Positions 4,939-6,724 of a stretch of DNA of 64,000 nt are shown here, piece after piece. The translations under genes and the position numbers were made by a program. This DNA is from Haladaptatus sp. R4 (GTDB taxonomy: Archaea; Halobacteriota; Halobacteria; Halobacteriales; Haladaptataceae), in the NCBI RefSeq assembly GCF_001625445.1, contig NZ_LWHG01000032.1:62001-126000 (forward strand). The letters run 5' to 3'. Each line of letters opens with the position of its first letter. Within the stretch, counting starts at the first letter, position 1. The notes beneath the pieces were generated by a model. It made no database searches. It saw nothing but the letters and a program-made list of their open reading frames with translations, and was not told the DNA's origin.

Positions 4939-5786
4939 CTATCGTTCGCCCAGAAATCGCTCCGCCGTGTTCCGGAAAAGGTCCTCGTACACGGACGCCG
5001 GTAACTCGCGTTCGAGCAGTCCCCGACGCTCGTCCTCGTAGGGATACGGCACGTTCGGGAAGTCCGTGCCGAACTGCACCGATTCGGCGAGTTCGACCAG
5101 CGTCTCGTCCGAAATCCCGTCGGCGTCGAACCCCAACACGTCCGCCGAGCGGGGGGACAGCGCCATCGTCGTGTCCAGAAAGACGTTTTCGTTGTCCCGC
5201 GCGAAGTTCAGGAAGTCCCCCGTCTCGAACGTGCCCATGTGGGCCGCACACGCCCGGATTTCCGGATACGATTCGACGAACTCGGCGAACTGGTTGGCTC
5301 CAACGTGCGGACTGTCCTCGAACATCGGTGCCGTCCCCGCGTGGAACAGGATCGGTTTGTCGTACTCGGCGGCCGCCTCGAACGCTGGGTCGAGTCGGGG
5401 GTCCGCCGGGCCGCACTCCTGCACCGGACACTGGAACTTCAATCCCCTCGCACCCGCCTCGAATGCCTCGCGGACGACCGCCGCCACGTCGTCGTCGCCG
5501 TGCACCGTGGCGAACGGAATCGCCATTTCGGACTCCCTCGATTGGGTCAGTACCCACTCGTTCAACTCCCTCGCCATCCCGGGTTTGTGCGCGTACGGAA
5601 GGGCGATGTAGCGTTCGACACCCATCGCTCGAAGTCGTTCCTCCATCCGCTCCCGGTCGGTCGGATGCTCGAAGACCACCCCGCCTCTGCGGCGAGTGAC
5701 GTTCGAATCGCGGCCATCAGCTTTTGGGGCATGAGATGGACGTGGCCGTCGATGACACGGCCGTTCAGGTGGTCGGGAAGGGGCAT
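4939..5786 (-). CDS. amidohydrolase-2 family metal hydrolase/decarboxylase, one frameshift
   Basis: About 282 residues of the PF04909 TIM-barrel family. The start MPLPDHLNGRVIDGHVHL at 5786 supplies the metal-binding His-x-His. The barrel continues in a second frame after a loss near 5675-5685 (a G run; EAGW versus GVVFEHPTD). Later ligands are visible: FHAG, AHMG and the Asp in FGTDFP. Members hydrolyse or decarboxylate small cyclic or aromatic acids; the substrate is unknown. A longer open frame running upstream into the repeat island at 5.85-6.5 kb is spurious. Confidence 0.82.
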
Positions 5787-5851
5787 ACTGCGAAGTTGTC
5801 GGGGAATCGGTTTGAAGGATTGGGTCACGGAGACGACGAAAAGGAGAATTG

Positions 5852-6500
5852 AGAGGTGAATTTGGCTTTTTCGTGATTTCAACAGCGACGAAGAAGGCCC
5901 CGAAAGCCCCTAACCGTTCACTAAGAGACGTGTTTGGTGGTTTTTCGATTTCAGCAACTACTGAGAAGACTACCTCGAAAGCCCCCGCCCGCTCGCGGCC
6001 CGCACCTCTGGTGCGCCCGCGCGAGGTCTTCGTGAGTGACGCAGGAGCGAGCGAACGGCTCGTCAGAGCTATGCTCTGACGGTGGACGACTGAACGTAGT
6101 TCCCGTGAGCGGTAGCGAACGGGAGCACAGAAGAGCGAAGCTCTTCCGGAGTGAGGGAGTCGGTTGGGGAGGGCGTGGTACGGTGCGACGGCGGTGGTGT
6201 GGGTGGGATGAAAGGGGCCGTCCGTTCGCGCTTGTTGTAGTCGTCTCAGCGACCCCTCTCGGCGTGAGGTTTTCTCGTGAGCGACGTAGGAGCGAACGAG
6301 AGCAGGCAAGAGCTGCGCTCTTGCCGTGTGAGCCGAGATGTCGCTGAGCGACCGCGAACGGGCGGGGGCTTTCGGGGTCATGTTCGCAGTTGCGGAAATC
6401 ACAAAGCCATCAAACACGTCTCTACGTAGCGAACAGCCAGGGGCTTTCGAAGTCTGCTTCTCAGCAACTGCACTCACACAGTTATCAAATCCATCTGCTC
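5852..6500. repeat. inverted pair of tandem about 72-bp repeats, intergenic island
   Basis: The left arm has two head-to-tail units (about 5852-5923 and 5925-5998). The right arm has two units in reverse orientation (about 6352-6422 and 6423-6500). Shared signatures are GAGACGTGTTTG at unit starts, GATTTC followed by GCAACT in mid-unit, and CGAAAGCCCC near the ends. The two inner units match best: both begin GAGACGTGTTTG and end GAAAGCCCCCGCCCG-TTCGCGG or a close variant. No transposase, tRNA or credible protein is present. It fills the gap between the amidohydrolase and the HerA-like gene. Confidence 0.75.
6001..6352. other. cluster of five perfect hairpins with three-base loops
   Basis: Perfect stems with 3-nt loops occur at 6001-6015 (CGCACC-TCT-GGTGCG), 6062-6080 (GTCAGAGC-TAT-GCTCTGAC), 6130-6146 (GAAGAGC-GAA-GCTCTTC), 6306-6324 (GCAAGAGC-TGC-GCTCTTGC) and 6340-6352 (GTCGC-TGA-GCGAC). 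The second to fourth end similar modules that start CGTGAG (6031, 6104 and 6276) and share AGAGC/GCTCT stems. Their outer pairs differ but remain complementary. This suggests a selected structure in DNA or RNA; the function is unknown. Confidence 0.7.
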
Positions 6501-6724
6501 GTAGTGAGATGTTCGAGGGGATTTATTTCAGTAAAAACAAGCATGATTCAATATAATCCAGTCCCGCGCTGAATCGACCTTAAATCCAAAAAATTGACAG
6601 CGTGCTGGCCGTCAACGTGGAAGATTCGAAAGGCACAGAACGGGAAAACATAGACGAACCGTTTCTCACGATTCCCCCGATGCAAAAATTGAAGGATTCG
6701 CTGCCGAATCGAGAATGTAAGAGA

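Follow-up and report, generated by a model that had tools for sequence, protein, structure and literature searches.

A dispersed intergenic mosaic repeat with locally covarying hairpins in Haladaptatus sp. R4 and other haloarchaea

The cluster of triloop hairpins near position 6,000 of the 64,000-nucleotide stretch of Haladaptatus sp. R4 DNA analyzed here (the window) belongs to a larger repeat that lies between genes in many haloarchaea and keeps its short stems paired through changes on both sides. We give about even chances to the reading that this is a non-autonomous, haloarchaea-specific mosaic repeat of the REP/BIME kind, of which the window holds a partly decayed copy. The alternatives weighed below are a structured noncoding RNA, a chromosomal landmark without mobility, template-switch correction of quasi-palindromes and chance.

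Extent and Layout of the Window Element

A preliminary description, made from the letters of the window, had taken positions 6001–6352 as the unit. This span is a real core, but in profile searches the whole element is larger, reaching from about 5853 to 6508, with tandem 73-nt terminal units inverted around the core. On the left, an outer copy of the unit with the motif GAAAGCCCC at 5902 (5853–5921, + strand, profile match E = 3e-14) adjoins an inner copy with CGAAAGCCCCCGCCCGCTCGCGG (5913–6002, + strand, E = 8e-23); on the right, the inner (6336–6436, E = 3e-26) and outer (6428–6508, E = 3e-18) units are inverted and lie on the − strand. On the same contig, a further copy some 27 kb distant is 99% identical to positions 6347–6422. 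The core contains two conserved blocks on the + strand, TCGGTTGGGGAGG (6160–6172), which is an invariant block of the family pattern, and GGTGGTGTGGGTGGGATGAAAGGGGCCGTCCGTTCGCG (6192–6230), which matches haloarchaeal megaplasmids and is common to the copies of the same genome.

Direct reading placed the three modules where they had been described, CGTGAG beginning at 6031, 6104, and 6276, and AGAGCnnnGCTCT occurred three times in the 64-kb window, always inside the element, against an expectation of 0.05. Each module has a + strand stem of its own. The first (6031–6057) alternates short Watson–Crick segments with GA/GA, as CGT-GA-GT-GA ... GA-GC-GA-ACG, the second (6102–6123) reads CCCGT-GA-GC-GGTA-GC-GA-ACGGG, and the third (6274–6300) reads CTCGT-GA-GC-GACGTAGGA-GC-GA-ACGAG. 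The accompanying triloop hairpins are CGTCAGAGC-TAT-GCTCTGACG (6061–6081, 9-bp stem, loop TAT), GAAGAGC-GAA-GCTCTTC (6130–6146, seven perfect base pairs, loop GAA, with one broken pair outside), and GGCAAGAGC-TGC-GCTCTTGCC (6305–6325, 9-bp stem, loop TGC). The stem changes of these AGAGC-type hairpins are indeed paired: the outer stems differ and the pairing stays. Of 20 GAGCnnnGCTC hairpins at element loci in this genome, 17 have 9-bp stems, no longer and no shorter; pairing ends sharply past the ninth base pair, and the outer stems differ yet pair (CGTC/GACG, CGGA/TCCG, CGGG/CCCG, and GGCA/TGCC).

The two flanking triloop hairpins were likewise found as described. One, CGCACC-TCT-GGTGCG (6001–6015), appears by comparison with complete copies to be a remnant of the hp1-type hairpin that adjoins their centre; the other is GTCGC-TGA-GCGAC (6340–6352). 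Perfect triloop stems of at least 7 bp were not enriched across the whole window (10 observed, 9.1 expected), and these two short hairpins therefore mean little alone; the signal rests on the family-specific hairpins and not on triloops as such. The same chance-level count would suit an origin of the modules as chance GC-rich palindromes, an idea refuted by the dozens of homologues, the lack of any match in controls, and the covariation, and one that we regard as scarcely credible.

The Family in the Haladaptatus Genome

Failure to find further copies had been named as the outcome that would count against the element; dozens were found. At least 30 relatives of the window element lie elsewhere in the genome, where BLAST with the element gave 52 matches with just 14 candidate regions scored, and a covariance model of the centre and hairpin hp2 identified about 35 distinct centres. 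Data on copies and rearrangements were drawn from stretches of genome. A common order of parts emerged from 33 inspected regions. In its left half the order runs through terminal units, a local hairpin, GGCCCCTTTCAATCCACCCACACC, CCTCCCCAACCGATTC, TCATCCCTCGCGCG, hp1, and the centre, which in complete copies is GCGCGCC-GTG-CGGTTGG-loop-CCAACCG-GTGGCGCGC; the right half continues with hp2, GTGCGAGGGATGA, hp3, GAATCGGTTGGGGAGG, GGTGTGGGTGGATTGAAAGGGGCC, a local hairpin, and inverted terminal units. Inverted pairs of terminal units surround the core in many copies. The triloop modules, which had been proposed as the unit, are optional inserts in this order and thus belong to a mosaic repeat of greater size. 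The conserved part common to the family is a half-element of about 150 nt, GGCGCGCGC-hp2-GTGCGAGGGATGA-hp3-TCGGYTGGGGAGG, whose copies are typically 65–85% identical. One contig of at least 386 kb (C29) gave no centre match while other large contigs gave many; it is possibly a plasmid without the family.

The covariance model of centre and hp2 found no match in the window, so this partly decayed copy has lost its centre and hp2, the most conserved part of the element, and because of that loss it is probably an inactive relic.

Covariation, Strandedness, and Stem Design

The gap-free alignment of hp3 (43 sequences, 26 columns) was 87.2% paired, compared with 63.6% after shuffling and at most 41.5% in all slid controls, and for every one of its six pairs there were sequences with both sides changed. 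For hp2 (15 sequences), pairing reached 95.9%, 7 of 13 pairs were changed on both sides, and the covariation was above every slide and every shuffle (none of 500). Hairpin hp3 is built of 2-bp layers separated by GA/GA, which explains why its lengths are mostly 18, 26, or 34, and the CGTGAG...GCGAACG modules of the window share this alternating design. The earlier proposal of selection for structure thus holds for hp2 and hp3, which covary in independent alignments of the family, and for the triloops, which keep 9-bp stems by paired changes, but the paired changes are local only. Modeled as single-stranded DNA, the window element does fold more stably than its shuffles (z = −7.4), in a fold that uses terminal-arm pairing. 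We nevertheless discarded the idea that the terminal arms co-evolve as one giant long-range hairpin, because identity within elements (0.657) was no different from that between them (0.649, P = 0.29); the long inverted arms do not covary within an element, and it is for this reason that we call the paired changes local.

Mismatches in the hp2 stems were G·T in 95 cases and A·C in 21, where composition predicts a ratio of about 1:1, and 57 loci leaned toward G·T against 11 toward A·C (P = 1e-8). This bias suggests that one of the two strands folds by itself, as RNA or single-stranded DNA. We rejected the forward-versus-reverse folding asymmetry of the whole element as proof of strandedness because it is mostly composition, which leaves the mismatch counts as the support.

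The same counts bear on three alternatives. Template-switch correction of quasi-palindromes is a known mutational mechanism and could produce compensatory changes without selection on structure, and the hairpins are near-perfect and GC-rich as it would have them. Such correction should, however, remove G·T and A·C alike, whereas G·T is kept 4.5-fold over A·C, and the alternating 2-bp and GA/GA layers of hp3, at lengths of 18, 26, or 34, are unlike the correction of a perfect palindrome; we consider this origin very improbable. Secondly, the family could be a multicopy structured noncoding RNA, the GTGCGAGGGATGA strand being a putative transcript that folds hp2 and hp3 and acts in a ribonucleoprotein or on neighboring mRNAs. 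The G·T bias, the strong covariation of both hairpins, and two unpaired 13-nt blocks conserved across Halobacteria all speak for an RNA, and we hold it to be a serious but somewhat unlikely possibility in view of evidence given below. Thirdly, the elements may be immobile DNA landmarks that organize or insulate the chromosome as hairpins or protein-binding sites and are copied by gene conversion and duplication. A cruciform folds both strands, for which strand-biased mismatches are not expected.

Distribution across Halobacteria

Within the order, the covariance model of centre and hp2 (model R1) had matches in 32 of 146 genomes, spread over 12 of 56 genera. The exact pattern GTGCGAGGGATGA-N(8-38)-TCGGYTGGGGAGG was found in at least 120 stretches with one genome per species, and among the matches listed, all were haloarchaeal (Natrinema, Halosimplex, Natronococcus, Halococcus, Halorussus, Haladaptatus, Haloarcula, and others). 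It was present in all 17 chosen haloarchaeal genomes, at up to 26 copies and with zero matches for reversed controls. Sampling across the order gave the pattern in 11 of 53 genomes, and sampling of the rest of the phylum in none of 242. In Natrialbaceae the half-element is compact, TGCGGTGG...GCCACGATAGCAG, and is found both singly and as inverted pairs; inverted half-element pairs 100–200 nt apart occur in three genomes (G152, G153, and G159). Natrinema genomes also contain many 84–98% identical copies of another dispersed repeat, about 87 nt long (L148:2072-2158) and unrelated to the element.

No Rfam family matched at the gathering score, nor at E ≤ 1 in six copies, and no tRNA was found in the element. 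Text searches of the accessible literature for a published description returned only the SMR, PATE, and MITE work on Haloquadratum and bacterial REP work. With neither an Rfam match nor a describing paper found, the earlier suggestion of an undescribed element is probably right, and the repeat is probably a haloarchaea-specific family not described before. The lack of an Rfam match counts against a structured RNA, as does the variation in exact-pattern copies from 0 to 26 between related genomes; such uneven copy number also disfavors a landmark. The half-element had no match in viral or phage records, and plasmid carriage was essentially negative, with few plasmid matches. This near absence is unusual for an actively moving element and would fit a fixed landmark.

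Genomic Context and Turnover

The copies are intergenic and seldom lie between divergent promoters. At 67 loci with both neighboring genes called, 23 were ++, 18 were −−, 20 were convergent, and 6 were divergent. The excess of convergent over divergent pairs (20 versus 6, P = 0.009) would also suit landmarks at gene 3′ ends, whether these act in 3′-end insulation between convergent genes or as cruciform or chromatin-protein sites. Orientation relative to the neighboring genes showed no preference (codirectional 23 versus 18) and no TATA/BRE-like signal was conserved upstream in 103 loci, both of which weigh against a transcribed RNA.

Presence varies between close relatives. At one tail-to-tail junction, elements occur in two Natrinema species and in Haloterrigena salina, there as an inverted pair, and are absent in four other Natrinema, a presence/absence pattern at an orthologous site that a landmark without mobility does not readily explain. 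At the one orthologous Natrinema site examined, no clean target-site duplication was found, at most a diverged duplication at stop codons, and the extra DNA exceeds the element alone. A family member of different appearance persists at a second locus in four species of the window's genus, which indicates that some copies are old and vertically kept; such long persistence agrees with a landmark.

The window element lies between genes for an amidohydrolase (PF04909) and a HerA-like ATPase (PF01935), in a synteny breakpoint at 5826–6671: in relatives, the gene upstream of HerA is oxidase-like and the amidohydrolase adjoins a CoA-transferase. The oxidase and CoA-transferase genes are neighbors on contig C9 (L068) of the Haladaptatus genome, a layout that a reciprocal rearrangement would leave, and no element was detected there. 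With the window genes apart in relatives and the reciprocal junction elsewhere, gene order makes recombination at or near the window element likely, though not proven. A copy at a rearrangement breakpoint would also suit a landmark; on balance, such landmarks seem to us unlikely. In another rearrangement, that of the L018 locus between genomes G003 and G004, no element was found at the breakpoints.

Two features of the surroundings deserve mention. The amidohydrolase gene (4939–5789, − strand) is frameshifted at 5673–5691 relative to the intact 278-aa homologue of a relative, its N-terminal part lying in another frame than the remainder, and represents a pseudogene or an assembly error. On the other side, an A/T-rich stretch with TTTCAGTA-like words adjoins the element (6515–6600), and a run of similar CAGTAT/TTTCAGTA words lies upstream of the same HerA gene in a relative (L028:1200-1330).

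Comparison with Known Repeats

By analogy, the family most resembles bacterial REP/BIME, which is the nearest bacterial system (PMC2817692) and of which it would be the haloarchaeal counterpart. In both, short palindromes are repeated many times between genes, singly or as inverted pairs; both are mosaic and strand-asymmetric and keep away from divergent promoters. The present element differs in being larger (a half-element of about 150 nt) and multi-hairpin, in having conserved unpaired blocks, and in having been found only in Halobacteria here. No GTAG or CGTC tag was noticed by eye beside the palindrome in the family consensus. The Y1 (RAYT-type) transposase associated with REP is also missing from the picture: PF01797 had no match in the 96% complete Haladaptatus genome, while five control genomes were positive, and we accordingly rejected RAYT/IS200 mobilization in this genome. 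The accessible part of the RepRanger survey (PMC12306157) names no haloarchaeon among its archaea.

The nearest haloarchaeal systems are the SMR, PATE, and MITE of Haloquadratum (PMC3119063). The SMR of Haloquadratum walsbyi are likewise haloarchaeal and noncoding, with inverted ends without a known transposon, no clear target duplication, and no named mobilizer. They are about 80–110 bp long, commonly conserved above 95% within a type, and often inserted into PATE/IS605 elements (PMC3119063), whereas the present elements are 150–900 nt, divergent in sequence, and intergenic; near-identical copies of SMR length were not what we found. PATE share the palindromes, the single-strand logic, the noncoding character, and a target duplication that is not seen, but lack inverted terminal repeats and have palindromes related to IS605-type transposons; here, inverted 73-nt units stand at both ends, and the search for a Y1 transposase in the Haladaptatus genome revealed no IS605 link. 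MITEs are also short, noncoding, and numerous, with inverted termini as in the window's genus. The 73-nt terminal units are, in contrast, tandem and limited to some lineages, the core occurring without them elsewhere; they seem not to be tied to a transposon, and no clean target duplication was seen at the site examined.

Discussion

The half-element exists in many scattered copies, singly or as inverted pairs, with 9-bp triloop modules as optional parts and inverted 73-nt terminal units added in the window's genus. Under the REP/BIME-like reading, it would be non-autonomous and would depend on an enzyme acting in trans on a folded single strand, the substrate being either DNA left single-stranded at the replication fork or a transcript that is then reverse-transcribed. 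Copies would settle where promoters are least disturbed, and repeated copies could then serve as recombination points. The dispersed copies, the distribution, the covariation, the strand bias, the position relative to genes, the turnover in Natrinema, and the breakpoint at the window copy speak for this reading. Against it stand the missing Y1 transposase, the lack of a clean target duplication, the oversized extra DNA at the Natrinema site, the near absence from viruses and plasmids, the old, vertically kept copies, and the conserved unpaired blocks, which could have a function beyond spreading. A bolder reading, which we advance only tentatively, would make the family either a haloarchaea-wide, single-strand-acting element copied via folded RNA or single-stranded DNA (SINE- or REP-like, with a new enzyme) or a lineage-specific multicopy functional RNA built on stems of 2 bp and tandem G·A.

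Many haloarchaeal chromosomes carry this element between genes, and its stem design, with 2-bp steps, tandem G·A, and hairpins growing in 8-nt steps, is unusual. If the family is what we propose, it raises the question of which enzyme copies the element, and whether via RNA or single-stranded DNA, and the element would mark likely points of recombination in haloarchaeal genomes.
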